A stretch of DNA of 64,000 nucleotides from Liolophura sinensis (taxonomy: Eukaryota > Mollusca > Polyplacophora > Chitonida > Chitonidae): assembly GCF_032854445.1 (NCBI RefSeq), contig NC_088304.1, positions 25,245,704 through 25,309,703 of the forward strand, read 5' to 3'. Of the stretch, positions 12,301 through 48,400 are shown piece after piece. Every line of letters starts with the position of its first letter. The stretch's first letter is position 1. Below the pieces are notes generated by a model that did no database searches, was not told the origin of the DNA, and worked only from the letters and a program-made list of their open reading frames with translations. The position numbers and the translations under genes were made by a program.

Positions 12301-15300
12301 CTGAGTTTACAGCATGTTGGTTGACTGTTCTGAGTATAAATTCAGTGTTATTTTACTGTTTTACTCTGTGTAATGTACATGTACTTACTAGTGGACGGCT
12401 GGGTCAAGTCATGCCAAAGACTTTAAAAATGGTACTTCTTGCTGCCTGGCTTGACGCTCAGCACTAAGAGGTTAGAGCAAGGAAACAGGGTTGGTTGGCG
12501 TGGTGTCACTACTAATGTGACTGTGTGGGGTGTCTTGTCTGGTGTCACAAGAAGGTCATGTAAAATCCCAAGCATTTATTCATTCTTTCGTGTTGTTTGA
12601 CCGGTGCAGACATTACTCTGTATTGATATCATGTTGTCATGATTGCAGACATTGCTGTGTACAAATACGCCATCCTTTGAAGTGGAGAGACTACAGTTTT
12701 CACCCAGTGGCTGTCACCTGAGCTTGGCTGGGCCTGGGGGCGTTATCGTTCTGGAGCTGCCTCAACGGTGGGGAAGATTTGCAGAGTATGAAGGAGGGAA
12801 AGATGCCGTCTTGTGCAAGTATGGGAATGCTGTTGTTGAAATAAGCTTTACAGTTTACTACAAAAGACTTGTTTGTGTGACAAACAGGAAGCCATGATAC
12901 GTAATACCATTGATGTGTAATGTTGTTCAATTAAATTTAGGTCGAAATGAAAATATTTCTGGCATCATATCAAATTAAGCCTTGTTAGTTGCCGTTGTTT
13001 TATCCAAGAAAGTATAAAAATGTTTTTGCTTTTCTTTTTTTCTTTTTTTGTATTTCAGAACTATATCAGTTGGGGAGCGGTACTTTTCAAACCGTAAACA
13101 GATGAAGTTGTTAAAGGCTGAGTGGCACCCTGGTAGTGCAAATAGTAACCACATCACACTGCTCACCTCTGATAATGTTCTCAGGTGGGTCACAGTAACC
13201 ACATTACACCGCTCACCTCCGATAATGTTCTCAGGTGTGTCACAGTAACCACATCACACTGCTCACCACAGATAATGTTCTCAGGTGGGTCACAGTAACC
13301 ACATTACACCGCTCACCTCCAATAATGTTCTCAGGTGTGTCACAGTAACCACATCAGCCTTCTAACCTCAGATAATGTCCCAGTAACCACATCACACTGC
13401 TCACTGCAGATAATGTTCTCAGGTGTGTCACAGTAACCACATTACACTGCTCACCTCCAATAATGTTCTCAGGTGTGTCACAGTAACCACATCACACTGC
13501 TCACTGCAGATAATGTTCTCATATGAGTCATAGTAACCACATCACACTGCTCACTGCAGATAATGTTCTCAGGTGTGTCACAGTAACCACATTACACTGC
13601 TCACCTCCAATAATGTTCTCAGGTGTGTCACAGTAACCACATCACACTGCTCACTGCAGATAATGTTCTCATGTGAGTCACAGTAACCACATCACACTGC
13701 TCACCTCCAATAATGTTCTCAGGTGTGTCACAGTAACCACATTACATCGCTCACCTCCAATAATGTTCTCAGGTGTGTCACAGTAACCACATCACACTGC
13801 TCACCACAGATAATGTTCTCAGGTGAGTCATAGTAACCACATCACACTGCTCACTGCAGATAATGTTCTCAGGTGTGTCACAGTAACCACATCACACTGC
13901 TCACTGCAGATAATGTTCTCAGGTGTGTCACAGTAACCACATCACACTGCTCACCTCAGATAATGTTCTCAGGTGTGTCACAGTAACCACATCACACTGC
14001 TGACCTCAGATAATGTTCTCAGGTGTGTCACAGTAACCACATCACACTGCTCACCGCAGGAAAATTTCTCAGGTGTGTCACAGTAACCACATCACAGTGC
14101 TCATTTCAGACAATGTTCTCAGGTGAGTCACAGTGACCACATCAGCCTTCTCACGTCAGATAATGTCCTCAGGTGAGCCACAGTGACCCACATTACGCTG
14201 CCCACCTCAGATAATGTCCTCAGTTGAGTCACAGTAACCACATCACGCTGCCCACCTCAGATAATGTTCTCAGGTGGGTCACAGTGACCACGTCACACCG
14301 CTGACATCAGATAACGTCCTCAGGTGTGTCACAGTAACCATCACAGTTCTGGGGCCTCCGTGGCTCAGTCGGTTAGCGCACTAGCACAGCGTAATGACCT
14401 ATGAGTCTCTCACCAATGCCGTCGCTGTGAGTTCAAGTCCAGCTCATGCTGACTTCCTCTCCGGCTGTACGTGGGAAGGTCTGTCAGCAACCTGCGGATG
14501 GTCGTGGGTTTCCCCCGGGCTGTGCCTGGTTGCCACCCACCATAATGCTGGCCGCCGTTGTATAAGTGAAATATTCTTGAGTGCGGCGTAAAACACCATT
14601 CAAATAATCAAATCAAATAACATCACAGCCCTCACCTCAGACAATGTTCTCAGGTGAGACACAGTGACCACACCACGCTGCCCACCTCAGATAATGTCCT
14701 CAGGTGAGTCACAGTAACCACATCACACTGCTCACCTTAGATAATGTTCTCAGGTGAGACACAGTGACCACATTAGCCTTCTCACCTCAGATAATGTTCT
14801 CAGGTGGGTCACAGGAACCAAATCACATTGCCTACCTCAGGTAATGTTCCAAGGTGCATCACAGTAACCACATCACACTGCCCACCTCAGAAAATACTCT
14901 CAGGTGGGTCACAGGAACCAAATCACATTTCCTCACCTCAGATAATGCTCTTAGGTGAGCCACAGTAACCACATCAGCCTACTCACCTTAGATAATGTCC
15001 TCAATGGGATCAAGGTAACTGTCTCACAACGTTCACATCAAACTGCACACCTCAGATGAAGTTCTCAGGTGTGTTACAGTAACCATATTATTCACCTCAA
15101 ATAATGTTCTCAGGTGGGTCACACTAACCACATCACGCTGCTCACCTCAGATAATGTTCTCAGGGAGGGGTCACACTAACCACCTCACACTGCTCACTGC
15201 AGATAATGTACTCAAGGGGGTCAAGGTAACTGTATCATACCGTTCACATCACACTGCTGACCTCAGATAATGTTCTCAGGGAGGGGTCACACTAACCACC

Positions 15301-18300
15301 TCACACTGCTCACTGCAGATAATGTACTCAAGGAGGTCGAGGTAACTGTATCATACCATTCACATCACACTGCTGACCTCAGATAATGTATTCAGGGAGG
15401 GGTCACACTAACGACATCACACCAATTACCTGGATTGATTAATTACAGGTCAATTATATTAGTGTTTTTAAGTATCTATGAAGAACTGAGGTACATGTAG
15501 TTAACCAAAGGTAAAATGTCTTTGTCTTCGGAATTGGAAACATTCTGATAAGCGTGAAGTGTATCGCTGAGTTGTTTTGCTTTATTTTACTCTTCAGCAC
15601 TTACAACATCATTCAGCCTGAGCAACCTATAGAAATTATCACACTTTCTGACGGCGATGCTGGGAATGTTTCGAGGTTTCAGGCTGTTCTGGGGGATGTC
15701 GCCGTCAGTTTCGATTTCGGCCAGCCAGTGGAAATGGGTAAACAGAAGCAGACGGCATGGCCAGTGTACATCCTGAGGGGGAATGGAGATGTGCTGATGG
15801 CATATTCCAACCCTATGCTCTACACCAGCAGGTAAGTATCTGTCTGTAGGCCACGAAATTAGGAGCAAATGAAATAATCGTTCACTTGTCAGTTACATGG
15901 AGTGTAATTGTGCAGACCGATAAATCTGTTACGCTGATCTGTCCCCCAGAGCTTTCCCACAAATGCAGCATTTGAACTGTGTAGCTCTGAACGGGTATAT
16001 TAGAGTTGCCCACACAAGGTTAAGGGCTATCCTCAGGGTAGGATATCATGACAGCTAACACAAAACAGAAGTCATGTCAGTTGTTAGAGCTATCTGTTGT
16101 CTGTTTTCTGTTGTCCTGGGGCAGAACACAATCGCTAATACATCTGTGAACGAAAGCTGTCATTTGGCGTAATGCTACAAAGTGTTCTGTTGAACTTGAA
16201 CTCAATGCCGGTATGTTCTAAATGGAGTCACCAGCCTTCTGTTCCGACCAAATTTTGTTGAGATCTGGGTTTTGTTTATTAATCGGGTCAGTGCGTCTCC
16301 ACTCCTGTTATTTTTGCCGTCAAGTCCAGCCTACAACCACCTATTAACTTAGCGATGGTGTATAGGCAACTCGTGAGAAGGCTTCTGTGTTAAAAAAAAA
16401 AAAAAAAACGTTTGGCTAAGAAAGCACTGTTCGACTTTCGGCTACATTTTCCCACAGTGAGCGTGCGAACTACATGTCTCCTTTGTTATGTACACAACAC
16501 GTGCTAGCTGGTGACATTTGTCAGCCATGTATTGCGCTCTTAATGATCTAGCGGTAGGTGGAGAGAGTAACAGTAGGCAGAGAAAGGTGACATTCAGTGT
16601 AAACTTTCACTAGCCAACAACTTTCCATGAGCTGGTCAGCCTTGACATTCCCTTGTGTCAGTGGTTTTATCATTTCACCCTGTGGACGAAACCATTTTAT
16701 CAGACAAGGATGGTGAGAGCTTCATGAACCAGTTGGATATTACAGACACTACACTTAGCTTACTGTAGAAGTAATTATTAATCAAATAAAGAAAATACTC
16801 AGGGATATAACGCATGCTGGTTTGGCCTTGGAGGCCACGTGATTCTCAGCGTGTATGACAGATATGTTTTATGGTGGCTTCCTGATCCACCCTGATATAT
16901 GCGGATCACCTCTCATGCCGTGGCCCCACGTGTAGCCATTGTGCTATCTGGGGATTCTCAGCGTGTATGACACATATGTTTTATAGTGGCTTCCTGATCC
17001 ACCCTGATATATGTGGATCACCTCTCATGCCGTGGCCCCACATTTAGCCATTGTGCTATCCATGGATTCTCAGCATGTATGACACATATGTTTTATAGTG
17101 GCTTCCTGATCCACCCTGATATATGCGGATCACCTGTCATGCCGTGGCCCCACGTGTAGCCATTGTGCTATCCATGGATTCTGCTGGACATGAATGATGG
17201 CGCACAGTACTGCAATACAACCAACTTCATACGCAAAATTATTATAGACTTTGCCGAAGTTACAGTAGACGAAAGGAAAAAAATCTCCAAGGAAATACTG
17301 TTCATGACTTTATTAGCCACATGTTTATGTAACCAATTTGCGCAAACAATTGGTCTCTTTTCGTGTCATGGTGAAAACTGAATCATTTATTCAAGGCTTA
17401 AAACCCGTAATCGATTTTTGGGTTACGTCAACCACCCAAATTCTGCGTCTGAAACCTTCTGGCCCAGTAAATGTGTATGGTGTCAAACAGGAATAAATCA
17501 GTAAAGGAATGTGGGATTTGTCAGGTACCTGGTGAAGAAAGGTTGATGTGCCCAGGCATACATTTGATCACCGCCATATAAGGCTAAAGTCCTTCAGTGC
17601 ATTATTTAAGTAAAAGAGCAATCAAATAAGTAAGTTAATAAGAAACAATGTTTGACTTTGCCAGCCTCAAACCAGCGAAGAATAAATTCCCGGTACAAGG
17701 CCCGCTGCGGATGTTCCCACCTGCTGAGGACAACTATGGAACAGACGCCTGCTCCATTCTGTCCCTCAACAGCGACGTCCCTATCCTGGTCATTGCCACC
17801 TGCTCAGGAACTCTACACCTGTGTGTTTTGTCACCGTCTAAAGAGGACTTTGATGATTTACAGGTAATGTAAATGGTTGACCGTTTGTATTATATTTACA
17901 GTTGCTAATGATATTTGAGGATTCACAGGTAATATATATTTTTATTTCTTTATTAGCGTGTACATTTTCAAACCTTTGTAACAGTCAACTGAATCTTTTT
18001 CTGAAATAACATGTTCTTGTTACATGTCCTGAAACATTGGTAAATTCTGTGATCTATGTTTGATTTTAGGTTTTAAGCAAATTAGGTCTTGCAAGACTTA
18101 GCTTGAATTCATGCTAATTTTATTTGAGCACAGTCAGAGTCCTATTGGCGGACACCTGACTCGTCAGTTCTGTCAGCTGATGTCCCCGAGATGACCATGT
18201 GTGTGTATGAGAGTGTGGAGATAGAGCTGTCACTGACCACCATGTCAATGCAGACAGGAGAGATCATCGATGATGACTTCAGCTGTCCAATCAGGCTGGA

Positions 18301-21300
18301 GCGAGGTGAGTGTTTGGACAGAAGCCAGACAAAATATACCAAGAAAGTTTTTAAAATACCCTAAATAACCTAAAATTAAATACAATAAAATATTTTTTTT
18401 TTTTGTGCTGGAACTTACATTTCACCAGTAGGATATTATCCTACCATCCAAACTAACCTTAAACATTTCTGTAATCAACAGATTTCTCAGAATCAGGAAA
18501 TTAGCAAGTTTGTCGTGCACTGAATGTAACGTCATTCACAGTACGTTTCAAAATGGGGTGTTGATAATCCAACTTGCTATTTATACGCTCAAATCAATCT
18601 GCCAGAATTATTCCAGATGTGTGAATCTCTAGATTCTGTATGTAAATTTCTAGATGTATATATTTGTCTTCCACTAACGTGCAGAGTGTCGTGGGTTTCC
18701 CTCGGGCTCTGCTCGGTTTCCTCCCACCATAATGCTGACTGATGTCGTATAAGTGAAGTACTCTTGAGTGCAGAGTAAAACGTCAGTCAGATAAATACAT
18801 GAATCTATGTTTTTTGGTTGGCTGAAGCCACATCAGAGTAAAGAAAATAAAGTATTTTCAGATTTATACGTGGCCTTAACTTTTCAACTCATTTGTCTTT
18901 TCAGAATGAGGTCAAATGTTGTGAATTTTTTATGGATGTACATGTATCTTGTCCCTAAATAACACGTATGTTAAGACCTGATTGAACTACAAACTGTTTC
19001 ACATACATATATACTTATATACATATTTCCAGTGGAATAAAACTACTGTAGCCGTGTTTCTGGTTTTGTAGATCCGGGCTGCTCTGACCGCTTTTACTGT
19101 ACCCACGCTGCTGGCGTCCACACCGTGGCCTTGCCGTGGATCACGAACATCATCAACTACTGCTCAGATGGTGAATACAGTCTCGTGTATATAATCTCTG
19201 ATCGTGGAAGGCTGTATTAAATAATTTTGGCTTCTTTTTTCTTTTCAGCCATAGACCAGCTTTCTATGAACAACTTCAGCTTCAAATACAGCTGAATTTA
19301 TCTAAGCTCAGTGTAGCTCTCTTTTTGTAATCTTTTTTTTTTATGTATAAAATTTTATTGATATTTTTTGATAATATGTAATCGTTTTGCACATGTTATG
19401 CTATTTGTGTTTTGTCTGTGACAGACGGTACAGACGAGGACCTATCTTCTGCCCAGGAGTGTGTTGTGGAGCATCTAGTCTGTACCAAGCCCTTAGCCAG
19501 CAGGTAATGTGGTCTATATTTAACTTTACTGTACTAGGCTGCAGTGTTTTCATTTTATACATTTTTTCATATGTTTATTTGTTTGACTTGGTCTATTTAA
19601 CGCCATGCCCAAAACTATTTTGCTTACATGATAGATTTAAAGTGTGTGAAAGACTGTGAGGAAATCAAGCCATCTCAATGTGTACCTCTCGACATAGTGC
19701 AACAGTGAACTGGAACGTACAATTTGATTGGTAAAGGGCCAAATACTTAAAATGGGGCTGACCTTCAACTTGAATCCAAGCACTAATTTAGTAAAGCAAG
19801 GATATTTAGGCACAAAGGGAGACCACTGCTGTTGAATTGTTGCAGTTCGGAAATGAAATCAGATATTTGTCTACTGGGTGTGCGATACAGTGATTATTGT
19901 TTACAGTACAACTCTGTTTTCTGCAATTTTCAGAAGCATTTGAGCTTGTAACACCAGCTTGTGTGGGCACCTTCACCATTATTGGCAGATGCGAGTTGTT
20001 CGTGTTGTCGTCCAGTTTCAAAATCTGAATTGATTGTACGAATGATAATTACATTTAATGAATGATTTTGGTATATGCTTTATTCAGTCCCTCATCACCA
20101 GTGGGCGGAGTTTGTGTAGTAAGTGACCACACCCCAGGACCCACCCTTCTTGTACTGACTAATGAGATGGAGTTTATTGCCCTGCCACTCAGGTATGGCC
20201 ACACCCTGTAACTAGTCAGGAAAAATTGATATTGGACAACAGATTGTTTTATAGATAATAATAATAAATCCACGTTCAACCGTGAGTCTTAAGTATGATA
20301 TAATAATATTATTCCTCCTTTATACGTGTGAAATGTCAGAGTCTTATGTTCAAGACATTATTTAATAATTGCGAACTCTAAAGGGTTTTCCATTTTTTCT
20401 ATCTATGATAATATACTTTAGCTGAGATCATTGTAAGAAGTCACATCCTAAGCCAGCTTGAAAACAATCTGTAAAGCTGAAGAGGGACCTCCATGGGCTA
20501 GTGCATAGCATGTTGGCGCAGCATAATGATCCAGGGCCCAGTTGTTTGAAAGTGTATTAGCTAAAACTGGTATTGAGTCGGTTTTATAATAAGGATTTTT
20601 TAGACAAATTCAGAAGCCAATAAAGCTGACCAAAGGCTAAAATCTATCAGCAGCAGGCTTGGTTCATATTTAATATACTGTTATGCAATTATTTTTGGGT
20701 AAAGTGCAAAACTGAGGACTTGGTTTAAAGTTAAATGTGATATTAAGTCTTTGAACAACCGGGCCCAGAAGTCTCTCACCAGGTCTGGCAGCAACCTTTG
20801 GGTGGTCATGTGTTTCACCCTGGCTCTGCCCGGTGTCCTGCCACTATAATTGTGGCTTTCATTGTATAAGTGAAATATTCTTGAGTAAGAGGCGAAACAC
20901 TAATGAGATGGGTGAAACAATAATGAGACTCATTAAATGAGTAATGAAACAATAATGAGACATTATTAAATAAATAATGAAACAATAGTGAGACACATTA
21001 AATGAATAATGAAACAATAATGAGACACATTAAATGAATACATATAAATACATAGAAAAAGGTGGAAATAATAATGCCTTTGTTTTGTATGTTACAGCAC
21101 AAAATACAGAAGTGCCCCCACCCCTCTGGTGTCACTGTCACCCAGTAAGACTATGAAGTCACCCCTGAGGCGATTAAGCAAAGAGCCATTTGAACAACAC
21201 ATTCGAGGATTACTCAAGAGGCAGACCTCCAACCCTCTGCTGAGGTGAGTGTCCATGTTTTCCGTTAGCAGAGAATAGGGGAGTTACAAGATTGAACTCT

Positions 21301-26950: not shown

Positions 26951-27059
26951 TGGCAGCCGTGTTTGATATCTTCATCAATGGTCTTCTTGTCGTCCTGCAG
27001 TGACACTAAACAGGATCATTTTTCCGTTTTCAGGTTCACATACAGATTTATTCTGGCAT

Positions 27060-27350
27060 AAACTAACTGACTGAAACAAAGTGCCAGTGCTGACAATCAT
27101 TGAGGTAAAAACAAGATGACATTGTGGTATATAATGAAACTAAACAAAGGGGCAGTGCTGACAGTCAGTGAGGTAAAAACAGGATGACATTGTGGTATAT
27201 AATGAAGTGAAACAAAGAGGCGGTGCTGACAGTCAGTGAGGTAAAAACAGGATGACATTGTGGTATATAATGAGGTGAAACATAGTGCCAGTGCTGACAG
27301 TCAGTGAGGTAAAAACAAGATGACATTGTGGAATATAATGATGTGAAACA
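27060..27350 (+). repeat. About 61-bp tandem repeat just after the NUP88 stop codon
   Basis: About 4.5 copies of a unit containing GTGCTGACAGTCAGTGAGGT and GATGACATTGTGGTATATAA, starting about 110 bp after the stop codon and therefore probably transcribed in the 3' UTR. Divergence rises in the last copies up to about 27400. Confidence 0.85.
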
Positions 27351-30985: not shown

Positions 30986-31051
30986 AGTATAGAACTCGTG
31001 GAAAAAAAACAGTCAGAAGTTACAATTCATGAATTACAATTCATCATTGTG

Positions 31052-33020: not shown

Positions 33021-33067
33021 CAATGGTTTATTAATTTTTTTTAGAGGATTTTTATGCCAGTATTGCG

Positions 33068-33142
33068 ATGGGGGGAAACCCATGACGATCCACAGTTTGC
33101 TGAAGACCTTTCCTCGTACGACTGGAGAGGAGGCCAGCCTAT
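33068..33142 (-). mobile_element. SINE family A body fragment
   Basis: The central segment only (GGGGAAACCCATGACGATCC, GACTGGAGAGGAGGCCAGCC). Confidence 0.55.
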
Positions 33143-33430
33143 AGGTTAGAATCAATAAAGCGTTTACACATCACTGCTTATACTCAGTTAGGTGTGTACA
33201 CGCAACTGATTACAGTCGATGGACTGTGTTCACCTCACTTGCTCTGTAATCAGCTAAGTGTTTACATATCACTGGATATACTCAATCAGGTGAGGTAAAG
33301 GCCACTGATTAGGCCACTGATTGGTCAACTGATTGTGTTCATTTCACTTGTTCTGTAATCAGCTGTGTACTCCTCACATGTTGCTATCAATCGAGCACAC
33401 CTTATGGGATATAACCAATCAACTCAGTTA

Positions 33431-36400
33431 CTACAATGAGGACTTGGTGAAGAAGCGTTGTATCCGGAAAGGTGTCAGGTCGTACGAAGGTGACTTTCCC
33501 TGTGCGAGCTCTGATAGCACCTTCCCTACCACCGGGGCCAGTTTGAAACCGTGACCTGCAAACAGATTGACTGATAAATTGCATTTACTATTTTTCTTTC
33601 ATCAAAATAAAGTTGTAAAGATATTGTAGTTTATAGATGTAATTTATTTGTATCCCGGTCTTGAGGTGAAAAGTTTTATCACGATATCTTATCTGATACG
33701 CTCATTGAAAGATTGACGTTTCGTTTTTTGTTCGTTTCACTGACCTGAAAACCCCGCCCCTATCACTATGTTCTTCCAGTGTGGATGTGTGTCCAGGATG
33801 AAGTTTTCATCAGGGGTCACCTGCAAATTACAGTATATATACGGTGAAACAAAGTACTCTTAACGAAAACTTAATCTTATTGACAGGTTTGAAATATGGA
33901 TTCTGTAAGACTGCATGGAGGCACATTCTGTTGTTTACCGGAAATACACAGTAGATGTATACTTTAAGGATTCACCTATACTCAATCACTTGTGAGACCT
34001 TGGTAACAATAAAGGGTTGGTGATGCTCACACACAGGTGAACGTTTGCCCAGCCTAACGTCCATTGATCACTTGCCTTCGACCCATGTGTCGTGGGTATT
34101 TGTACCTCATGCGCGGGGAAGTTTATCAGCGATTTCCAAACGGTAGACACACGTGTACCAGACAGCTAGCTAGGATTTTGTCGTCGTCGTCGTCGTCGTC
34201 GTCGTCGTCCTCCTCCTCCTCCTCCTCCTCCTCATCACCATCATCATCTTATTTGGTGTGGTTTTTATGCCTTTTTGAAGGGTATTTCTCTTTAACGACG
34301 TTAAGCCAGCGTTAGGATGGGTTGATCCCAGGGGACATCCAGGCTAGCTAGGAGTGTAGCTTACCGCGTATAAACAAATTTCTCTGATGTCTGGCCTCTC
34401 TCCCTCCATACCAGGGAAGTGTTCCTTCATGTACGGAGTGTAGCTTACCGTGTATGTATATGTCTCCCTGATGCCGATCTCTCTTCCTCCACACCAGGAA
34501 AGTGTTCCCTCGCGTACCAGGAGTATAGCTTACCGTGTATATACAAGTCTCCCTGATACTAGGTCTATCTCCCTCCACACCAGGGAAGTGTTCCTTCACG
34601 TACGGAGTGTAGCTTACCGTGTATATACAAGTCTTCCTGAAGCTGGTCTCTCTCCCTCCACACCAGGGAAGTGTTCCTTCACGTACGGAGTGTAGCTTAC
34701 CGTGTATATACAAGTCTTCCTGAAGCTGGTCTCTCTTCCTCCACATTAGGGAAGTGCTCCTTCACGTACGGAGTGCAGCTTACCGTGTATATACAAGTCT
34801 CCCTGATGCCGGTCTCTCTCCCTCCACACCAGGGAAGTTCCCTCACGTACGGAGTGTAGCCTACTGTGTATATACAAGTCTCCTTGATACCGGGTCTCTC
34901 TTCCTCCACACCAGGGAAGTGTTCCCTCACGTACCAGTAGTATAGCTTACCGTGTAGATCCCCACGTACGGAGTGTAGCTTACTGTGTATATACAAGTCT
35001 CCTTGATACCGGGTCTCTCTTCCTCCACACCAGGGAAGTGTTCCCTTACGTACCAGTAGTGTAGCTTACCGTGTAGATACAAGTCTCCCTGATACCAGGT
35101 CTCTCTCCCTCTACACCAAGGAAGTGTTCCTTCACGTACGGAGTGTAGCTTACCGTGTATATACAAGTCTCCTTGATACCGGGTCTCTCTCTCTCCACAC
35201 CAGAGAAGTGTTCCTTCACGTACTGAGTGTAGCTTACCGTGTATATACAAGTCTCCTTGATACCGGGTCTCTCTTCCTCCACACCAGGGAAGTGTTTCCT
35301 CATGTACCAGGAGTATAGCTTACCGTGTATATACAAGTCTCCCTGATACTAGGTCTCTCTCCCTCCACACCAGGAAAGTGTTCCCTCGTGTACCAGGAGT
35401 ATAGCTTACCGTGTATGTACAAGTCTCCCTGATACTAGGTCTATCTCCCTCCACACCAGGAAAGTGTTCCCTCGTGTACGGAGTGTAGCTTACCGTGTAT
35501 ATACAAGTCTCCCTGATGCCGGTCTCTCTCCCTCCACACCAGGGAAGTGTTCCTTCACGTACGGAGTGTAGCTTACCGTGTATATACAAGTCTCCTTGAT
35601 ACCGGGTCTCTCTTCCTCCACACCAGGAAAGTGTTTCCTCATGTACCAGGAGTATAGCTTACCGTGTATATACAAGTCTCCCTGATACTAGGTCTCTCTC
35701 CCTCCACACCAGGAAAGTGTTCCCTCGTGTACCAGGAGTATAGCTTACCGTGTATGTACAAGTCTCCCTGATACTAGGTCTATCTCCCTCCACACCAGGA
35801 AAGTGTTCCTTCACGTACGGAGTGTAGCTTACCGTGTATATACAAGTCTCCTTGATACCGGGTCTCTCTTCCTCCACACCAGGAAAGTGTTTCCTCATGT
35901 ACCAGGAGTATAGCTTACCGTGTATGTACAAGTCTCCCTGATACTAGGTCTATCTCCCTCCACACCAGGAAAGTGTTCCTTCATGTACGGAGTGTAGCTT
36001 ACCGTGTATATACAAGTCTCCTTGATACCGGGTCTCTCTTCCTCCACACCAGGAAAGTGTTTCCTCATGTACCAGGAGTATAGCTTACCGTGTATGTACA
36101 AGTCTCCCTGATACTAGGTCTATCTCCCTCCACACCAGGAAAGTGTTCCCTCGCGTACGGAGTGTAGCTTACCGTGTATATACAAGTCTCCCTGATGCCG
36201 GTCTCTCTCCCTCCACACCAGGGAAGTGCTCCTTCACGTACGGAGTGTAGCTTACCGTGTATATACAAGTCTCCCTGATACCTGGTTTCTCTTCCTCCAC
36301 ACCAGGAAAGTGTTCCCTCACGTACCAGGAGTATAGCTTACCGTGTATATACAAGTCTCCCTGATACCAGGTCTCTCCCCCTCCACACCAGGGAAGTGTT

Positions 36401-39400
36401 CCTTCACGTATTTCACCATGGAGTTCAGCACCCAGGAATCATCCACCCCATCACGGAAGTCGGGGTTTATAGCTGGTCCCGTGTGTAAGACGATCTTAAA
36501 CCGAACGAGAATTTTTAATTTGCTAAATTAGAAGTTGCCGTATTTAATAAAATCCAGGTTCAGGTTACAAGGTGTGCTGGTTGTTACAGCGACATGATCT
36601 GCACTGCCAACTTTGTGTTAGAACGTTCTTCACGTATTATATTTATTTCTTTCTCTACACACACACACACATATATATATATTGGGTTATTTTGTGGTTT
36701 CTACATTACCTGTTTTGGGCTCTTCTATTATTCTATTCTTTGCGTTATGGCTCAGAAGAATGTGGAAACATATACTTCTACTTCACATGTTGTACGCTTC
36801 TGAAATATCAATGAGGCCGTATCGTTCATAGATAATAATCAAATAGAAAATAATACAATCGCAAAGATGGAAGGTGAAAACTTACAACTTTTTGACAGCC
36901 GTCTCCTATTGCCAGTGTGTAAGCTTAATTATTGTGCGTGCGCGCAAGAGGGATAATCTTTGCCTAAAAGGGAAGTTTTCCCCAGCCCCCCTACCTTCAC
37001 ATGCCCCGGATATTCCATCGCAGGTAGGCTGTACACATCTGCGCCGTGAATTGCGTTCAACTCTATCGTGCAGGGAAACCCGTTATCTGCGCTGAGGACG
37101 CCGGGTTTTCTCTCCCTCCAGTAACCCACAGTTATCCTGACCGGCTGAAATAAGAATTGGTTATTCCAATAACGAACGGAGGGAAAAATGGGAACTTAAA
37201 CCTACTTACATGCCTATATATCAACTTCGACCGAACTGTATGACAAGATGTTCTGATATTTATTCTCAGACTATGCATTAGTTCAATTAAATTAAATGTT
37301 CAGGTATACTGTCAAAGTACGTTGTGTCAGGTAAGTATCGGAAATTGTTGAAACTGATCTCAATGTTTCATTTAATTCAGATAATTATATATATTTGCAT
37401 ATACATACACATGCTCATTTCTTTTACGAATATTTGTACATACCGGTCCCGGTGTGTCTAAAGTCTTCAAATCATTTGTACATATAGCGTTCCTGGTGTG
37501 TCTGAAGTCTTCAAATCATTTGTACATACCGGTCCCGGTGTGTCTAAAGTCTACAAATCATTTGTACAGACTGGTCCCAATGTGTCTAACGTCTACAAAT
37601 CATTTGTACAGACTGGCCCCAATGTGTCTAAAGTCTTCAAATCATTTGTGCATACCCGTCCCCGTGGGTCTAAAGTCTTCAAAGCATTTGTACATACTGG
37701 TCCCGGTGTGTCTAAAGTCTTCAAATCATTTATACATGCCATTCCCGGTGGGTCTAAAGTCTTCAAAAGATTTGTACATACCGGTCCCGGTGGGTCTAAA
37801 GTCTTCAAATCATTTTTATATACCAGTCCCGATGTGTCTAAAGTCTTTTTTTTTGGTACATTTGGAACACTTTGCATATATATGTGTGTAAAATAAATTC
37901 TTATTTGCACATATGTACAAAAGATTTCCACACATGTACACACAAAAACTTGCGTTTCACTCCGCGACTCCGCGAGTGTTTTCATAACGTTGCATTCACT
38001 AGCGATGTCCATGAATTTATTTATTTATTTATTTATTTGATTGGTGTTTTACGCCGTACTCAAGAATATTTCACTTATACGACGGCGGCCAGCATTATGG
38101 TGGGTGGAAACCGGGCACAGCTCGGGGGAAACACACGACCATCTGGAGGTTGCTGCAAGACCTTCCCACGTACGGCCGGAGAGGAAGCCAGCATGAACTG
38201 GACTTGAACTCACAGCGACCGCATTGGTGAGAGACTCCTGGGTCATTACGCTGCGCTAGCGCGCTAACAAACTGAGCCACAGAGACCCCCCGATGTCCAT
38301 GAAAGTTGAACTTATTTTAATTCACTGATGCATATGGTGCGAGACGAAGCCAGATAATGGAACAATTACTGTATCCAGAAAATGCATTTTCGTCACAAAA
38401 ATTGAAATTTATGAACTGTTGGCCTTAGCAACATGCAAAAACATGTGCAACGTCTATATGGGTGCATGAAATAGCCATGAAGCAGACTGCCGGAACACAC
38501 ATTGCAAAACGCCGTGAATTGCTGATCTCTCTAATGTATACTACGGGTGGACATCCTGGATCTATGCTGCTATACTGGCTCTGTACAGTTCTAGTATGAA
38601 ATATCAATTAATTTATGACCTTCCCATGTACGACAGGAGAGAGAGAGCCAGCGTGAGGTAGACATGAACTCACAGGGACCGCATGCGTCTGTGGCTTCTG
38701 AAGTACTGTACTGCGCCAGCCCGCTAAGCACTGAACGTGGTTTGATTGATTGATTGATTGATTGATTGATGGATTGATGGATGGATGGATGGATGGATTT
38801 TTGACGTCATACTTAACAATTTTCGGTCACATGACGACCAGGAATCATTAGGTGTGCTTACATATACATGTATACTGTATCTTCCATACAGTATACCGCC
38901 AAAGTGCTGCCACTGAAATATCATGACGAAGACACCAGACATGACACCCTACCCAGTCACATTATACTCTCACCTCTCAGTGCTGAGGGTCAAACCAGGC
39001 AGCAACAAGTCCCATTTTAAAAGTCTTTGGTATTACACCCACACTCCTCGCAGCCATCCGACGGGCGAAGCGATTTTAAATAAAATCATTATCGTCATCG
39101 TTTCGTCAATTTAAACGGCTGACATATTACTAGTTCGAAACCTAGAGTGGTAGCAGCCAGTTTTCGGCACTTAAACTATGTATTTATTTGATTGGTGTTT
39201 TACGCAAGAATATTTCACATATACAACGATGGCCAGCATTATCGTGGTGAGAAACTGGGCAGGGCCGGGGAGGGGGGGGGGACCCACGACGATCCGCAAG
39301 CTGGTGGCAGATCTTCAGCTCTTGAATATGTGCCATGTCCGGAAAATGTAATCCTTTGTAACGATAAAAATTAATTTTGACTCCAGAATGTGCGACAATC

Positions 39401-42400
39401 TACTGTCGCCTACATCTTCACGGATGGCTGTCGTACTTGCAGATGATACAGTATAATGCCATGATTTCATCATCTGTGTGTACACTTTATGACAAGTCAC
39501 ATTTTTTTGTATGACGTCACATTTCCCTTGTGTTGGGCCGTGCGCAGAGCAAAATGTCTGTCTGAATTAGACGCATCGTCCATTGCCCATCCTTCATACT
39601 GGCTACAATCTAAGTCGATATTCAACAATGACATGCGCAAAACCGATGTAGAATCAAGACACACATACCTTAAGTGGTAGATGTAACCCCAAGGGCTTGA
39701 GAAGCTCAGGTGCCCAGGGACCCGCACAGATGACCACGCTGCGAGTCTTGTACGATCGTTTTGTAGTCCTCACGGTAACAATCTCTCCCGGGAACAACCC
39801 TGTCATCTTTTCTCCAGATCGGATCTCTCCGCCATTTTTCACAAACATTTCCTGTTAGTTAGGAAAATGCAGAAAATGCAGACAATCCAAGCGTATGTAT
39901 AAAATCTAAGTGTCCAATGCTATATCTCCCCCTTCCAACACCCTTTTGATTCTATAATTATTTATTCATTGGATTGGTGTTTTAAACCGTACCTATAATC
40001 AAGAATATTTCACTTATACAACCGTGGCCAACATGATGGCGGGAAGAAACAGGACAGGCCTCGAGAGAAACCAGCGACCATTAGCAGGTTGCTGGCAGAC
40101 CTTCTCAAAACCTGCCTTGTCTTGAACTCAAAGCGGTGTCATTGTTGAGAGGCTCCTGAGTCCTCAACTTTCACGTTCTAGAAAAAAGGTATATCATGCA
40201 TTGAGAAGAAGTACATACTGGTGCATGAAAAATATTAAACATATATTCACAATTATTATACAGGTCCACATTATCAAATGTTTGACTTCGCAGAAATACT
40301 ATATGATTTACATCAATATAAATCCAGTGCATGTAATATATACAACGCTCAAAGCACGTATAGGTATCCAGCTTCGGATACTGACTTCCCTCATTCGCCT
40401 AGAACACACCTCCCGTCTTTCCAAGATCATTGAAAACTGTTGACTATTCATCTCTTCGCAATAATCCGTCATAATTTCATGCTTCATATACTTTTTTTTT
40501 ACTCCTTTGATAATTTGTGTTGAATGATGATTTGGAAATTCGTTGTGGGATTACTGACCTGCATGTACAGTCCATTTTGGTTGACGGCCAGTATACGAAT
40601 GTCTACTTTGATGCCCAGGTTCTGAACATATTACTCATATTAATATAGTGACAATAAGGATTACACATGCAGAAGACCATATCATCTTATCGCGTTAGTG
40701 TATCCTGCTTTACCTGTAAAGCTGTTAGAGACTTGTCAGCGTAAAGAATACCCGCCACACCGTCGTACACCGCCCCATATTCGGTTGGGTACCTCAACAT
40801 TGGGTAAGCCATCCGGAACTCTTCCGGGGATAGTCTCTGACAATGTTCCCCGGAACTCCGAATGGCTTGCTCCAAACGTGATAAATACGGACTGCCATCT
40901 TCTCCAATCATGATAAGGCCTGTCTTCCTGTTGGGAAAAAGTCATTTTCGTTGGCAAGAAGAAGTTCAAAGCACAATTATTGTTTAATATGAAAGACTAC
41001 AGCATAGGTGGTAAAATCACAACCGTGGCTACAGAGTGATAGTTGACGAATGATCACACGCAACCAGTGAAACCCGGCCATCTGTCAGTTTACCGAAATC
41101 AGGGTTTTATTCCAACTGTTCATGTATATGCTTTATTGGTAGGAACGTTTGTGCCCCTTAGTACCATATAACTCAAGCAGAACTGGGTAAAAAAGAATGC
41201 AGGGATGTTCATTATAATTTATTAGGCGTCACTGGTCAGGAATTACCCCAAATGCAATGCTGTTATCACATTTAATATACAAGCACATGCAGTAAGCACA
41301 AAGGCGGTCATATGTTCAAGGTCACTGTTCATCGCCAAGCCGAGGCGTACTGTTCTGTTGTAAAGATGAATTTTAGTGTTTGTTTTGAAGATAGGACATT
41401 TTATTCATCATCACGGTTGAACTTATCAACGCAGTGTCTATATATATATACACTACATTATCAAGGTGGCCGTGACATGCGAGTGCATGCCGCAAAAGCT
41501 CTGCCCCAACTTGAGTATCATCCCGAAGACACCAGACATGACACTCCACCCAGTCAGATAATACTGACACCCGACCATCTAGTCCTGATTCTTCACCCTA
41601 AGCTCTCAATGCTGAGCGTCATGTGAGACATCAACAAATACCATTTTTGACCCAACCCAGGTTTGATCCCATGCAGGTCTCCCGAATTCAATGCGGACGA
41701 TCTAACCCCCCAAGCGGCCCAATATATAGCGCAGAAATACAGACCCCATATAATATGACCATAAGGCCTATACTGGTGAAAGGGACATTAAACCATGGCA
41801 AACAAAAGCAGATTTGAAGGCAGCCGTAAGTTCTTGTGGTTACTTAATGTTCTGTCGTTTTATTTGTACTTACTTGTAGACGGTAGTTCCAGTTTCCTCC
41901 TCCAGATTTGCCCAGATGTCGTAGGCCTCTCTCATCATGCGGACGTAGAAATCTTGTGGGTAAGCTTTACGTGTGATTCGGCTGTGGCCATGAGAACTTC
42001 CGCGAGTGTGAGGCAGCGGAAACTTTGAATATAGACACATGTATTACAGAGTGTTAGTACCGCATAAGCTGTGCGTATACAGGGGACCTGTTATTGAAAG
42101 TCTTTCTAAAAGCCAATCAAGTCTAAATACCAATCACATCTTAATGCAAACCAAATAACAAGTTTTGATAAGTATTAGTCCTACAACATATAATCCTGTT
42201 ATTTACCCTGGTGCCGGAATATTAAGCTTTGCCTGTGTAAATATACAATAAAGTTACGTTTTTAAATAGTTGTTTCCATATCATACTCACCAAGTATCCG
42301 TTCATAAATGTAATTTGGAGATGGTCCCTTACCTGTTCCAGCATTAAAGTAGATCGACCGGCTTTGGCGAGGTGGTAAGCTGTAGACGACCCCTCAACCC

Positions 42401-42443
42401 CCGCGCCGATGACAATGGCATCGTATGTGTCCGTAGCTGCCAT
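33431..42443 (-). CDS. PIPOX: Peroxisomal sarcosine/pipecolate oxidase (complete, 8 coding exons)
   Basis: An FAD-dependent amine oxidase (MSOX/DAO fold) that oxidises sarcosine or L-pipecolate with O2, giving H2O2, in peroxisomes. Exons in transcription order: 42443-42333, 42022-41874, 40927-40714, 39851-39669, 37144-36995, 36494-36342, 33820-33745, 33555-33431. Phases agree; the frame is 1161 nt (386 aa; human 390). Visible motifs: dinucleotide-binding [10 protein letters not shown] near residue 10; [13 protein letters not shown] (exon 2); [18 protein letters not shown] (exon 4); ETCIYT ending exon 6, whose Cys matches the covalent FAD cysteine of the family; [12 protein letters not shown] and IVIGAGFSG (exon 7); [14 protein letters not shown] (exon 8). 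The ATG at 42443 was chosen over an upstream TTG. The C-terminus is -KSSL, a non-canonical PTS1. The gene is convergent with NUP88 and divergent from the zinc-finger gene. Confidence 0.94.
34182..34245 (+). repeat. Trinucleotide tract (GTC)n(CTC)n
   Basis: About eight TCG/GTC units pass into about eight CTC units and then CATCAT units, inside PIPOX intron 6. Confidence 0.95.
34345..36341 (-). repeat. 83-87-bp minisatellite built from the PIPOX exon 6 end plus its splice donor
   Basis: On the minus strand, intron 6 opens with about 25 tandem donor copies, counting the true one at 36342/36341. Each unit is about 68 bp of the exon 6 end (starting TACGTGAAGGAACACTTCCC and ending TGTATATACACG) followed by the donor GTAAGC and about 10 more intron bases. 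Two subtypes alternate: 83 bp (TACACTCCGTACGTGAAGG) and about 86-87 bp (TATACTCCTGGTACATGAGG). The subtypes form higher-order patterns between 35320 and 36250. Each unit also carries the TGT codon of the presumed FAD-linking cysteine. Unit lengths mostly are not multiples of 3, so retention would shift the frame. Truncated or mutated copies lie at 34350-34440 and 34945-34980. Confidence 0.93.
37440..37860 (-). repeat. 43-bp minisatellite in PIPOX intron 5
   Basis: About ten copies of a unit reading, on the plus strand, AAATCATTTGTACATACCGG then TCCCGGTGTGTCTAAAGTCTTC. On the PIPOX sense strand each unit holds CCGGTATGTAC, donor-like, and GACTTTAG, acceptor-like. The array begins about 300 bp upstream (in PIPOX sense) of exon 5 and does not match any exon I can see. 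Confidence 0.88.
38016..38290 (-). mobile_element. SINE family A, full length, perfect 13-bp target-site duplication
   Basis: A complete reverse copy from an ATTT-rich tail through ATTGGTGTTTTACGCCGTAC to the head (CTGAGCCACAGAGACCC). The flanks CGATGTCCATGAA (38003-38015 and 38291-38303) are identical, pointing to a recent insertion. It lies in PIPOX intron 4. Confidence 0.92.
38741..39035 (-). mobile_element. SINE family B copy with ATTG/GATG microsatellite tail
   Basis: The left end is a (GATT)n(GATG)n microsatellite. It is followed by the tail (TTTTTGACGTCATACTTAAC, CAATTTTCGGTCACATGACG) and body (CACTGAAATATCATGACGAA) of family B in reverse. The head is lost. Confidence 0.65.
39181..39318 (-). 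mobile_element. SINE family A fragment, reverse
   Basis: Tail ATTGGTGTTTTACGCAAGAA, with a deletion, then the body to GACGATCCGCAAGCTGG. A poly-G run interrupts it. Confidence 0.7.
39957..40162 (-). mobile_element. SINE family A, reverse, diverged
   Basis: Tail GGATTGGTGTTTTAAACCGT, body ACCATTAGCAGGTTGCTGGC, ending near GTTGAGAGGCTCCTGAGTCC. It is in PIPOX intron 3. Confidence 0.7.
40559..40621 (-). CDS. Candidate in-frame cassette exon of PIPOX (63 nt)
   Basis: Inside PIPOX intron 3 the minus strand has ATGTTCAG before and GTCAGT after an open 63-nt segment. In phase 0 it reads [20 protein letters not shown] plus Q. Both flanking exons also join in phase 0, so inclusion would add 21 residues after LTALQ without breaking the frame. 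Known PIPOX proteins have no insertion here: exons 3 and 4 joined directly already align gap-free with the human protein. The pyrimidine tract is weak, and a 21-codon open stretch is not improbable by chance. It could be a cassette exon, a lineage-specific exon or a decoy. Confidence 0.3.
41385..41765 (-). mobile_element. SINE family B copy, reverse, with head
   Basis: The body (GAGTATCATCCCGAAGACAC, GACACTCCACCCAGTCAGAT) leads right to a head-like region (GGTTTGATCCCATGCAGGTC, GACGATCTAACCCCCCAAGC), the inverse complement of the family B promoter boxes. It lies between PIPOX exons 2 and 3. Confidence 0.65.
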
Positions 42444-43365
42444 CGTGGCACACAACTAACGTCTCTTATAATGAAGACGGTCTATATCTGTAGGCTGGAC
42501 GAGACACCCGTCAATACACCTGCCTCAGCTGCTGTGAATACATTATTATACCTGTACAAGATATGCCTTAATCACTTCTCTGTCACATGCCACCGTTTTA
42601 GTACAAGGTACTCGACACACATAAACTCCGCGTTTGAACAAGCTGTCTGTCACGTCAAACCCGCAGGCCAAGCTCACACAACTAGGGTAACTTCGGACAT
42701 TCGAAAATTCGGATATTCGGGTAACTTCGGACATCCGGGTAAGATCGGACAGATCATAAAATAGCTCATCGGTAAAACATTAGGCCTTATACAGTGGTTG
42801 TCTGTCTTCTACTCGTGACACAGATACGGTTTTTGATTATGCATGTAGGCCTATGTGTATACGGAGTACCCACCGCACCAGCCGTCCGACTATTTTGTTC
42901 CGCAATCGGGATTGTGTTATTTTATTTATTTGATTATGTTGGCACGGGTTTAACTGTTAGAGAATAACCTGTATATATGTCAAGGTGCGAGGAATTTAGC
43001 AGGTCATTGTCATCAGACATCGATAAATCAGGTTAGTGCGTGCTCGAATCCAGTTCTATCTGGTTCGGCTGAAACGTTACGCCAGAACTGCCGAAGGGGA
43101 ATGGTTTTCTTCGAGCTCTATCCGGTGGAGGCTACTCCATCCATAAACTCGATAGAGTTCCTGTAAGGAAGATATTCCTATGTGCATGACACCATAATTT
43201 CCATTCGTGTCATAATTTGTAATTCGCTATCCTCGGAGAATGTAATAATCTATTTTATCGACAACTTATATACTAGCATGGTACACGATTTAAATACTGA
43301 TTTCACTTATCCGCCTAGCAAATTCCTTGAGTTGTTATATGAGCAAAATAATTGCATGGTTGGCG

Positions 43366-43620
43366 GCCTTGGGAAGGTTGTTTTGTATATATTGGTTGAC
43401 AGTCTTGGTAAGGTTGTTTTGTATATATTGTTTAACAATCTTGGTAAGGTTGGTTTGTATACATTGGGTAGCAATATTGGTAAGGTTGTTTTGTATGTTT
43501 TGGTTGTCAGTTTTGGTAAGGTTGTTTTGTATATATTGGTTGGCAATTTTGGTAAGGTTATTTTGTAATATTGCGTAGGGACCTTGGTAAGGCTGTTTTA
43601 TACATTTTCGTTGACACGTA
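43366..43620 (+). repeat. 36-bp minisatellite with donor-like motif, array 1
   Basis: Seven units like GGTTGACAGTCTTGGTAAGG plus TTGTTTTGTATATATT. Each contains TTGGTAAGG, a good match to a 5' splice site. Because 36 is a multiple of 3 the array gives a 12-residue periodic translation, which I take as non-coding. Confidence 0.9.
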
Positions 43621-43788
43621 ATATTGACGTGTGGTCAGTTTGGATTCCATACTGACTATTCCACATGACTAGCCGCTCTTAATCTATTTGAAAAATTAAC
43701 TATTGCAAAGGATTAGTATCTCGCCCTTTTTGGAGAACTAACTTCTCATTTTGCATGCACTGTTGGTAGGAAGGGACCACGCAGTATC

Positions 43789-43912
43789 TATTTATTTATT
43801 TCATTGGTGTTTTACGCCGTAGTCAAGAATATTTCCCTTATACGACTGCGGCCAGCATTATGGTGAGAGGAAACCGGGCAGAGTTCGGGGGAAACTCACG
43901 ACGACCACGCGA
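43789..43912 (-). mobile_element. SINE family A 3' fragment, reverse
   Basis: TTATTTATTTCATTGGTGTT, ACGCCGTAGTCAAGAATATT and GAGAGGAAACCGGGCAGAGT, ending at CTCACGACGACCACG. It lies between the two 36-bp arrays. Confidence 0.75.
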
Positions 43913-44029
43913 TAGGAATAAGATTTAAAAGCATGCAATTCAATATCGTTACTTATGAAAAATATAAAGCATTATGTGCTGGACCGTGGCAATCCCTGTC
44001 AATGCTCTTTGGTATAAAGCTGTATTATA

Positions 44030-44460
44030 TACACTGGTTGGCCTAGCTTAGGCTGTTTTATGTACACTGGTTGGCAATCTGGGTAAGGCTGTTTTGTAGC
44101 CTATACACTGGTTGGCAATCTGGGTGAGGTTGGTTTGTATACACTGGTTGGCGAACTGGATAAGGCTGTTTTGTATGCACTGGTTGGCAATCTTGGTAAG
44201 ACTGTTTTGTACACATTGGTAGGTGATCTTAGTAAAGCTGTCTTGTATACCTGGTTGGCAAACTGGGTAAGGCTGTTTGTGCACGCTGGTTGGCAATCTG
44301 AGTATAGCTGTTTTGTATACAATCGTTTTCAATCTGGGTAGAGTGTTTTGTACACTTTGGTTGGTAATCTTGGTAACGCTGTTTTGTATACACTGGTTGG
44401 CAATCTTGGTAAGGCTGTTTTATGTACATTGGTGGGCAGTCTGTTTTATGCTGTTTTTAT
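44030..44460 (+). repeat. 36-bp minisatellite with donor-like motif, array 2
   Basis: About 12 units of the same type as array 1 (GGTTGGCAATCTTGGTAAGG plus CTGTTTTGTATACACT), more divergent in length and sequence. Many units keep GGTAAG. Confidence 0.9.
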
Positions 44461-45402
44461 GAACGCTGGTTAAGCAATCCAGGTACCGGTAAGGATTTTT
44501 TTTTTCTTAAGTCAATTTAGAGTTTGGAACATTATCGCTTTGTTGCCTCGCGTATCGCTGTGTCAACGAACTGTTTGAACTGAAACATTTAGCCTTTGGA
44601 AATACCAGAGCTGTGGTATGTATAAATATGTTACCAACATCAAATGTACATCTAGGGCTGTGTATATAAACGTTGGGTGAGCAGTAGTTTGTATTCTGTA
44701 CATCACAAGATGTAGTTACATTATTCGTTCGGCTGTTACTAGGTGACGTAAATTGGGTGCCCTGTGGTACACACGCGTTATACAGACCTGTGCGATTTTT
44801 CGAGCTTCAGCTACATGTAGATAAACTGCGCTGCCAACACATTCAGAATTTCTGTTGCTTTGATGCTGATAGACGTCATAGCTTTTTGCCATGAAAACAG
44901 CCTGATTCTTCCCTCCTGCTCAGGTAATCAAAATAGCACGACGTCGATCCCTCCGTTTCATCTACAAGTATCAAGAAACCACAGACATGGGACCCACAGA
45001 CATAGTGAGCCGTCAGGCAAGAGGACTGATTTTACAGTAGTTACAAGACTGAGTATACATCATGCACAGTCGAATCTGTAGACTCAGCAGGCCCGTTGCC
45101 AGCCACCCACAAAAGCACATCTTTAGCACATTTATTTTGCTTTAAAAATGCATGTTTTGATGTCAGTTTTTAGGGTAAATTCAATATATTAGTTTAGAAA
45201 GTTTTGTATTGTTCTTAAACTCTATGAAGGTGCAGTATGTTACACTGTGTATGTACATTTTAAGATCAGATATATTATTAATTGTGTATAAATTGTTCTC
45301 TTTGCTGCTCTGTAGGAATGCCTGTTAACCACTGATGGGAGAATATTGGGAAGTACATTGTCTCTGCTCTCAGTGTGGCCTGTCCCACCGTGATAGCAAT
45401 TC

Positions 45403-48400
45403 ATGATGGAAATTGTTTATCTTGTACCCACAGCTCTACCAGAAGAAGCATCACTCAATGTAAGTTGCGCCTCAAGGGTGAAAAATGAGTTAGTTTCTTT
45501 TAACATGTGTTATTCTTAATGGGAGAGGCTTGAGTGCAGGAGGATATCAACTTTTTGTGAAAAGTCATAGCTGTTACATGTGTAACGGGAGCAACTGAGT
45601 TGACACCCTTGGCCTACCCTGGTTCTTAGGTTAGGATTCCAAACAGAGTGAAATAAAGTACATACCAACCAGAACCTGCCGTACAGTGTGGAACTCATAC
45701 ACCAAGGTGGTAAAACTCACTGATAACTTTAATAAACAAAGTGTAAACTAAGAAACATATTATTACTCTGGTCAAGATCTAAAAGAACAGTCATGTGGCT
45801 TTCCACCTCTCAGTTCACCCAGGCATGCATGGTACCTTATGTGGCAGTCTGTCAGGTAGAAGGCAAGAGTGTGGTATTTTAAACCTCAACCTATGCTCTC
45901 CACCCGTCTCTCAGAAGCACAGCCCAAGACGGAGGTTTCATAAATCTCATAAAATAAACTACCACAAAAGTCATTACTGTCCAAACACAGCGTAGTTTGA
46001 ATTGTCTTAATACTGTGGGTTTTCTAAATGAACTTGATCATCAGCAAAATATGTCCAAAAAGGTTTACAGAAGAAAAACCCTCGCAAATTTCGCAAGTGT
46101 ATCCAAGGGAATTAACTCTTCCCTTATACACTCCAAAAAATGAATCTGTTAATAGTAACAGAAATTCTGTTGTGTGAGTGATGCTAGAATGTATTCTGTT
46201 ATAACATAATGCTCTGCATTATTCAGCATAATATCCTGTTAGTGTAATGGAATTGTTAAATTAATCGAATATGTGTGTTCAATTTAACAAAATAATCTGT
46301 TGCAGTAGCATAATACATTCTAACATCACTGAGACAACATAATTTCTGTTAAAATTAACAGATTATTTTTTTGAGTTTAGGAATTCATGTTTGTTTTCAT
46401 GTACAGGTGTAACTCAGAATACAATTTGTAATTTAACAGTAAGGCCAACTATGTTTTAGTATAAATGATTTCGCTGCATCTACTTTTGTGCTAAAATGTT
46501 ATACATATGCGTCAGGCACCGTTTTTTTTTATGTGTGTATGGGGGGGGGGGGGAGTGTTTGCGAAAGAATATTGTAATGGCTTAGTATATACTGCAGATT
46601 TCTGGGTGACATCTTTGGGTCAAGAAAGCTGTCCAGTAATGAATCAATAAGGATTACCATAACCGTATAAGCTCCAAACCAATTTAAAACGTCAAAGGGT
46701 GAAATGTAATCAAATCTTACTTATGATGACATAATTTTTCTTTTGCAGGCTGAGCATTCTGTCGAGGAGAATGACAAATCTTACTTATCATGACATTATT
46801 TTTTTTTTCACAGGCTGAACATTCTGTCAAGGAGAATGACAAATCTTACTTATCACAACATTATTTGTCTTTTGCAGGCTGAACATTCTGTCAAGGAGAA
46901 TGACAAATCTTACTTATCACAACATTATTTGTCTTTTGCAGGCTGAACATTCTGTCGAGGAGAATGACAAATCTTACTTATCATGACATTATTTTTTTTT
47001 TAGGCTGAACATTCTGTCGAGGAGAATGACAAATCTTACTTATCATGACATTATTTTTCTTTTACAGGCTGAACATTCTGTCGAGGAGATTGACAAATCT
47101 TACTTATCATAACATTAATTTTTTTTTACAGGCTGAACATTCTGTCGAGGAGATTGACAAATCTTACTTATCATAACATTAATTTTTTTTTACAGGCTGA
47201 ACATTCTGTCAAGGAGAATGACAAATTTTACTTATCTTGACATTATTTTTCTTTTACAGGCTGAACATTCTGTCAAGGAGAATGACAAATCTTACTTATC
47301 ATAACATTATTTTTCTTTTACAGGCTGAACATTCTGTCGAGGAGAATGACAAATCTTACTTATCATAACATTAATTTTTTTTTACAGGCTGAACATTCTG
47401 TCAAGGAGAATGACAAATCTTACTTATCATAACATTATTTTTCTTTTACAGGCTGAACATTCTGTCAAGGAGAATGACAAATCTTACTTATCATAACATT
47501 AATTTTTTTTTACAGGCTGAACATTCTGTCGAGGAGAATGACAAATCTTACTTATCATGACATAATTTTTCTTTTACAGACTGAACATTCTGTCGAGGAG
47601 AATGACAAATCTTACTTATCATAACATTAATTTTTTTTTACAGGCTGAACATTCTGTCGAGGAGAATGACAAATCTTACTTATCATGACATTATTTTTCT
47701 TTTACAGGCTGAACATTCTGTCAAGGAGAATGACCCAAGTTGCTATGAGACAGAACTTCAGATTTCTCCTTCTGTTCCTTTGGAAGAGACTGGAAACACT
47801 GTGTCCTTGACAACCTTTCTGTCTGCAGACAAAGAGAATGGGAACGCCATGCTTATGCCCCTGGTGGCAGATTCGGTCAGCAGTTTAACCAGTCAAGCAG
47901 ACACTCGGGCTCTCCAGTGTAACATTTGTTCCAAGAGATTTTCTCGACAGTCATACTTGAGGCTGCATCTGAGGATGCATACTGGAGAGAAACCCCTAGA
48001 GTGTGAGCAGTGTGGGAAATCTTTCTCCGATGGAAGCAGCTTGTCACGCCACAGACGAAGCCACACGGGAGAAAGACCACACAAATGCCCTAAGTGTGGA
48101 AAGGCGTTTTCTCAGTCAGCACACCTCCACACGCACGTGAGCAGTGTTCATTCGGATTCCAGGCCATTCCACTGCGAAACTTGCCAGGCCACCTTCACCA
48201 AGCTTTACTCTCTCCGCCGACACATGCTGGTGCACACAGGCGAGAAGCCGTTTACATGTGATCAGTGTGGCAAATCCTTCAGGTCCTCATCTTCCCTGAT
48301 AATTCACAACAGGACGCATACAGGGAAGAAACCTTTCACCTGTCAGGTGTGCCACAAGAGCTTTGCTGATTCCTCAGTGCTTAAAACCCATGTCATTGTT

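Follow-up and report, generated by a model that had tools for sequence, protein, structure and literature searches.

Mirage minisatellites were reportedly described in the amphioxus Adh gene by Canestro and colleagues in 2002. Two amphioxus reports list Adh, the globins BflGb6 and BflGb9, troponin C, and PGBD5 as genes with mirages (PMC3087553, PMC3902484), and the Adh3 data together with reverse transcription PCR of the globins suggest regular splicing over such arrays (PMC3087553; also stated in PMC3902484). Here, we describe arrays of the same kind in the chiton Liolophura sinensis, both in a window of 64,000 nucleotides (C10:25245704–25309703) and at exon borders sampled across its genome (609,464,459 bases, 632 contigs). 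Within the window, a NUP88-like gene, a PIPOX-like gene, and a zinc-finger gene each have an exon–intron border covered by a tandem array, every unit of which combines exon and intron sequence; this had been proposed in a first-pass annotation of the window and was confirmed by Tandem Repeats Finder (TRF) and by reading of the borders. Among the sampled borders, 19 of 552 (3.4%; 95% interval 2.1–5.3%), or approximately one in thirty, were spanned in the same way.

All the features of mirages examined here are present in the chiton arrays: the tandem unit spans the exon–intron border, in the three window arrays as well as in the 19 sampled ones; AG or GT is kept in many copies (approximately 195 of the 222 copies found); and both donors and acceptors are involved, in several genes. 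The differences are that the host is a mollusc and not a chordate, that the chiton arrays are known from sequence alone, and that their frequency was measured on 552 borders against null expectations. Copy numbers also differ, reaching approximately 39 in the chiton, whereas 6 and 3 copies are given for BflGb6 and up to 7 for PGBD5 in the amphioxus reports. A limited, largely title-level search of the open-licence PMC literature found no mollusc report of border-spanning arrays, and the available part of a chiton genome paper (PMC12005716) does not mention them. This is a known kind of structure, found in an apparently new phylum and at high frequency.

The donor-spanning array of the NUP88-like gene occupies positions 13144–15422 of the window on the plus strand (TRF period 50). 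Exon 3 (13059–13184, plus strand) ends in ...GTTCTCAG|gtgggtcac, with 13185 as the first intron base, and its last 41 nt (13144–13184) form the exonic part of a 50-bp unit that is completed by 9 nt of intron. Beyond the real border lie 38 copies, 29 of which retain GT, so that the array comprises approximately 39 copies with the real one included. The exon was identified from its sequence, its border, and a match to the Pfam Nup88 profile, which was matched by all four NUP88 exon pieces tested (one of them under the curated cut-off); a genome-wide search with this profile gave six matches, all inside the window, including one at 13057–13191 (C10:25258760–25258894). Two TRF rows, 13144–14340 and 14620–15230, flank a gap in the array that holds an insert of approximately 275 bp (14345–14618, limits approximate, no strand assigned) resembling, by eye, a tRNA-type short interspersed element (SINE). 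Because the insert splits the array, it probably came in after the array had grown. By eye, similar sequence also occurs elsewhere in the window, for example at approximately 38040–38290.

On the minus strand, the donor-spanning array of the PIPOX-like gene (34351–36410; TRF period 83–87) covers the end of an exon that reads ...TATACACG|gtaagc, the first intron base being 36341. Approximately 69 nt of the 83–87-bp unit are exonic and correspond to the end of an exon read from its open reading frame (36342–36490, minus strand, 5′ limit approximate). The array has approximately 26 copies; GT is present in 24 of the 25 beyond the real border. One of four pieces of this gene, from a neighbouring exon (39654–39854), matched the Pfam DAO family of FAD oxidoreductases. 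The third array spans an acceptor on the plus strand (46711–47734; TRF period 64, 16.0 copies), and a direct count likewise gave 16 copies including the real one, with AG intact in all 16. Approximately 26 nt of its 64-bp unit are exonic. The exon starts at 47708 and continues to 50401 as a C2H2 open reading frame (plus strand), supported by its frame and by eight stretches matching Pfam zf-C2H2. The units contain ATG, and a start inside the array is a possible alternative to the acceptor. The name PIPOX, the zinc-finger acceptor, and the exon numbers in all three genes are putative, being taken from reading of the DNA.

When the array edges were searched as DNA queries against the genome, those of the NUP88-like, PIPOX-like, and zinc-finger arrays gave 17, 23, and 7 matches, respectively, none of them outside the array's own locus; the search took in these three window arrays, and the search tool skipped common words. 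Since each edge matched its own locus only, the three arrays are local duplications and not a dispersed element, and the earlier statement that their units are unrelated holds. Identical sequence at many loci, by which introner-like or transposable elements are recognised, was found for none of the three.

For the genome-wide sample, exons were chosen by protein family with repeats disregarded, and 450–500 bp of flank were taken on each side. The sample comprised every listed match to the kinesin motor (132) and every match to the myosin motor (81), together with the 63 internal ones of 99 P450 matches. Borders were placed from sequence reading and exon profiles, whose matches may end before a border or cross an intron. 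Spanning arrays were called by TRF and inspection by eye, unblinded. They were present in all three families, at 9 of 264 kinesin borders (L002, L005, L044, L051, L056, L058, L061, L069, and L073), 8 of 162 myosin borders (L082, L088, L093, L096, L100, L111, L130, and L131), and 2 of 126 P450 borders (L143 and L173). Thirteen were at donors and six at acceptors (P = 0.17); the corresponding numbers in the window are two and one. As 3.4% of borders sampled elsewhere carry such arrays, the trio in the window reflects a genome-wide feature and not a local hotspot. The first-pass annotation had pointed to three independent arrays within about 35 kb; their closeness is unremarkable, since at the sampled rate the probability of three or more among 40–60 borders, a rough guess and not a count of those in the window, is 0.16–0.34. 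An excess over chance can therefore be claimed for the genome and not for the window as such. If anything, that annotation understated the feature, which occurs genome-wide.

A homology test covered the 17 kinesin and myosin cases, the two P450 cases standing outside it. In 15 of them, the intronic copies fitted their own exon end above all 205–212 controls. L073 was tied by one control, L074, from the distal end of the same array, which entered the count only once; in L061, five controls equalled or beat the own exon end. Past the kinesin donor array of L073/L074 (C11:27412983–27414830) lies a longer copy, of approximately 110 nt and flanked by units, of the 3′ part of the exon, with the same reading and donor; it is a possible exon-duplication intermediate. 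An interrupted donor array at L124 (C11:2675303), with units that match the exon end and 59 bp of other sequence between, was left out of the count, even though its units beat all 212 control ends.

Several other candidates were rejected. Arrays in L032 (57–60 bp inside the intron), L001 and L067 (26 and 24 bp before the acceptor, respectively), L103 (14 and 15 bp away from both borders), and L121 (10 bp off) do not reach a border, and L022 is a TA microsatellite. In L118, the TRF end reaches 5 bp into the exon, yet an equal or better match was given by 5 of 212 controls. L106, L112, L116, L137, L141, L145, L149, and L179 were dropped as spanning arrays on inspection. In L185 (positions 446–485; C12:13772923), a perfect 19-bp tandem duplication was read as lying wholly within a P450 exon and breaking its frame, hence it is no border array. 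The idea that intronic arrays near borders are decayed mirages was also set aside: full-rank homology to the exon end was found only in L124 and in a second array of the L005 intron, L116 being borderline (8 of 212).

Repeats are hard to assemble, and the borders were placed from sequence reading and profiles, which raises an artefact of assembly or annotation as an explanation. We find it scarcely credible, given that copies differ among themselves and that spanning arrays recur in three of three families. The assembly report, which names the chiton Liolophura japonica (609,495,693 bases in total, 632 scaffolds; PMC11068029), specifies PacBio HiFi data at 14x; the reads average 8.3 kb, and the longest array in the window measures approximately 2.3 kb.

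The expected number of spanning arrays was estimated with two nulls. The first, which takes array density and unit length from the 73 non-spanning arrays found in the sampled pieces and is subject to an edge effect, gave an intron-wide expectation of 5.2 against the 19 seen (3.7-fold; P = 2e-6, or 1.5e-5 with rate error). By family, the observed and expected values were 9 vs 2.34 for kinesin, 8 vs 1.86 for myosin, and 2 vs 0.95 for P450. The second null, which counts exon-facing array ends only, gave 7.3 when based on ends 100–400 bp into the intron (2.6-fold; P = 2e-4) and 11.7 when based on the first 100 bp (1.6-fold; P = 0.03, or 0.06 with rate error). Because of the edge effect and a gradient towards the border, 2.6- and 1.6-fold are fairer figures than 3.7-fold. 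The first-pass annotation was therefore right that border-spanning arrays, at least among the sampled borders, are commoner than introns at large predict (5.2 or 7.3). Its remark that a splice site is not where ordinary minisatellites begin was fair, but this genome is so rich in arrays that chance alone spans approximately 1% of borders.

An excess of this kind could reflect a genuine duplication hotspot at exon borders, or in an exon-near zone of approximately 100 bp, created for instance by transcription, R-loops, or nucleosome edges. The comparisons with arrays elsewhere in introns favour such a hotspot, as does a tendency of array ends towards the exon (27 lie within the first 100 bp of the intron and 52 in the following 300 bp; P = 0.09). 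The comparison with the nearest 100 bp counts against it. Base composition alone accounts for a factor of 1.4, the G+C content being 0.418 at borders, 0.368 in introns, and 0.418 in non-spanning arrays; with this correction, the expectation rises from 7.3 to 10.3 (P = 0.009). Arrays do not avoid exon ends; a mild preference for the border or its exon-proximal surroundings, of 1.6- to 2.6-fold, is likely but not proven.

The structure of the units also bears on the hotspot. Across 22 arrays, including the three of the window, the exonic fraction of the unit is evenly distributed between approximately 0.1 and 0.85, with a mean of 0.495 when read by eye (Kolmogorov–Smirnov P = 0.32) and 0.483 by TRF edges (P = 0.38), at the limited power of this sample. 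The place of the splice site within the unit is apparently random, and the lack of a fixed position counts against the hotspot. Nor were splice-like motifs markedly enriched in 74 non-spanning arrays. Sense donors of at least 8 bits made up 4.1% in these arrays vs 2.9% in controls, and among four rank tests the one on sense donors alone gave a low value (P = 0.011); with only this small shift, a general origin of arrays from AGGT or splice motifs was rejected. In L143, a stretch of 28 bp across a P450 donor is present twice with no mismatch, while the paralogous exons compared (L142, L145, and L147) have the border once each, and similar intron sequence only in L147; L143 shows a newborn case, a fresh step of tandem duplication. 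The even exon share, the lack of a marked motif excess, and L143 together favour ordinary tandem duplication, its breakpoints falling at random, over a process directed at the splice site. We consider a hotspot rather unlikely as the explanation. The mutational process at exon borders that the first-pass annotation envisaged is only partly supported, and its action at the splice site itself is not supported, in view of the apparently random place in the unit and of the 11.7 and 10.3 arrays expected near the border and after G+C correction, respectively.

The annotation had also noted that the splice dinucleotide is kept in most copies, and the counts given above for the three window arrays agree. 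One explanation would be that selection maintains the arrays, either for their spare splice sites or because they adjust splicing. Of the approximately 195 intact sites, 91 equal or exceed the score of the real site on a simple weight matrix of our own; the copy counts are approximate, as the copy-finding script overcounts a few arrays (the zinc finger by one; L131 and L082 probably) and misses L173, which has an indel. When copies were compared with the real site, 14 of the 20 arrays whose border was valid showed higher agreement at the dinucleotide than at other bases, but here divergence of the copies from the real site acts as a confounder. Among the copies themselves, in the 18 arrays with at least three, agreement with the majority was 0.923 for splice dinucleotides and 0.923 for other bases (P = 0.68), dinucleotides being higher in 10 arrays, lower in 6, and equal in 2. 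Such equal conservation is as expected for neutral copies, and no selection on the copies themselves was seen in these 18 arrays. In addition, use of a copy site would ruin the protein in approximately 193 of 195 cases, through a stop in 174 and a frameshift in 19. Retention by selection is therefore very improbable. Since nearly all copy sites would ruin the protein while almost half score as well as the real one or better, the exon-proximal site would have to be chosen by position if these genes work.

We consider it probable that the chiton arrays are mirage-type border minisatellites, that is, tandem duplications with random breakpoints that survive at borders since splicing uses the exon-proximal copy. 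Such duplication is frequent in this genome, where arrays are dense and the place of the splice site is indistinguishable from random. A first duplicated stretch would cover a splice border by chance, and the exon-proximal copy would, judging from the reading frames, still make a normal mRNA, so that additional copies, which land in the intron, would be nearly harmless and could multiply by slippage or unequal exchange. Duplications inside exons would break the frame and be lost, L185 being one such case, and it would thus be at borders that arrays seeded in exons survive. Position and not strength would presumably guide the spliceosome, to the first of the donors or the last of the acceptors. 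Some observations count against this explanation. The P450 sample by itself has no excess (P = 0.24), and borders carry 2.6–3.7 times the arrays expected from intron-wide baselines, although selection should reduce the number of arrays at borders; plain permissiveness leaves this surplus not fully explained.

Survival of random duplications at borders can also be set beside proposed routes to new introns. In the Rogers model and in the potato RdRp gene, as in the chiton, a tandem duplication carries splice signals, and the potato duplication also crosses an existing intron–exon border (PMC4974935). The chiton arrays have many copies, whereas the classic model duplicates an exonic stretch with AGGT. 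Internal tandem repeats in human segmental duplications are likewise minisatellites at exon–intron boundaries and may form novel introns (PMC2812944); they were reported for recent paralogs, in which the repeat is often also kept in the exon of another transcript, whereas in the chiton nearly all copies would break the frame. One could therefore read the arrays as intermediates of intron gain by Rogers-type tandem duplication, broadly meant. The potato intron, which arose from duplication across an intron–exon border, gives this precedent, and the authors of the amphioxus globin study propose the same for mirages (PMC3087553). Against it, the chiton units straddle an existing border and are not exonic AGGT segments; they hold intron sequence in 22 of 22 arrays. 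As an account of the arrays, this is improbable, while a link between border arrays and intron gain would be reasonable by analogy.

The window contains approximately a dozen other arrays with a period of at least 20 (TRF). Two of these, at 43357–43616 and 44015–44457, have similar 36-bp units with GGTAAGG, lie approximately 400 bp apart with SINE-like sequence between, and may derive from a single old array, possibly located at a 5′ exon that went unrecognised; they were rejected as a donor array, the first copy having no GT and no exon being nameable. On the minus strand, at 53997–54729, open reading frames resemble, by eye, remains of the reverse transcriptase of a long interspersed element.

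A bolder view is that minisatellites in chitons arise preferentially from DNA at and near exon ends, that thousands of borders carry rows of decoy splice sites, equal in quality to the real ones, which the spliceosome passes over by position alone, and that this stock could feed intron gain; we put it forward tentatively, as a possibility with more doubt than confidence behind it. Mirages were earlier known from a handful of amphioxus genes, and their presence at 3.4% of the chiton borders sampled suggests that they follow generally from a high rate of tandem duplication and are not peculiar to cephalochordates. In each array, nature has set up an experiment on the choice of the spliceosome among up to dozens of near-identical sites. 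Taken together, the arrays offer many independent starting points within a single genome from which to test intron gain by tandem duplication.

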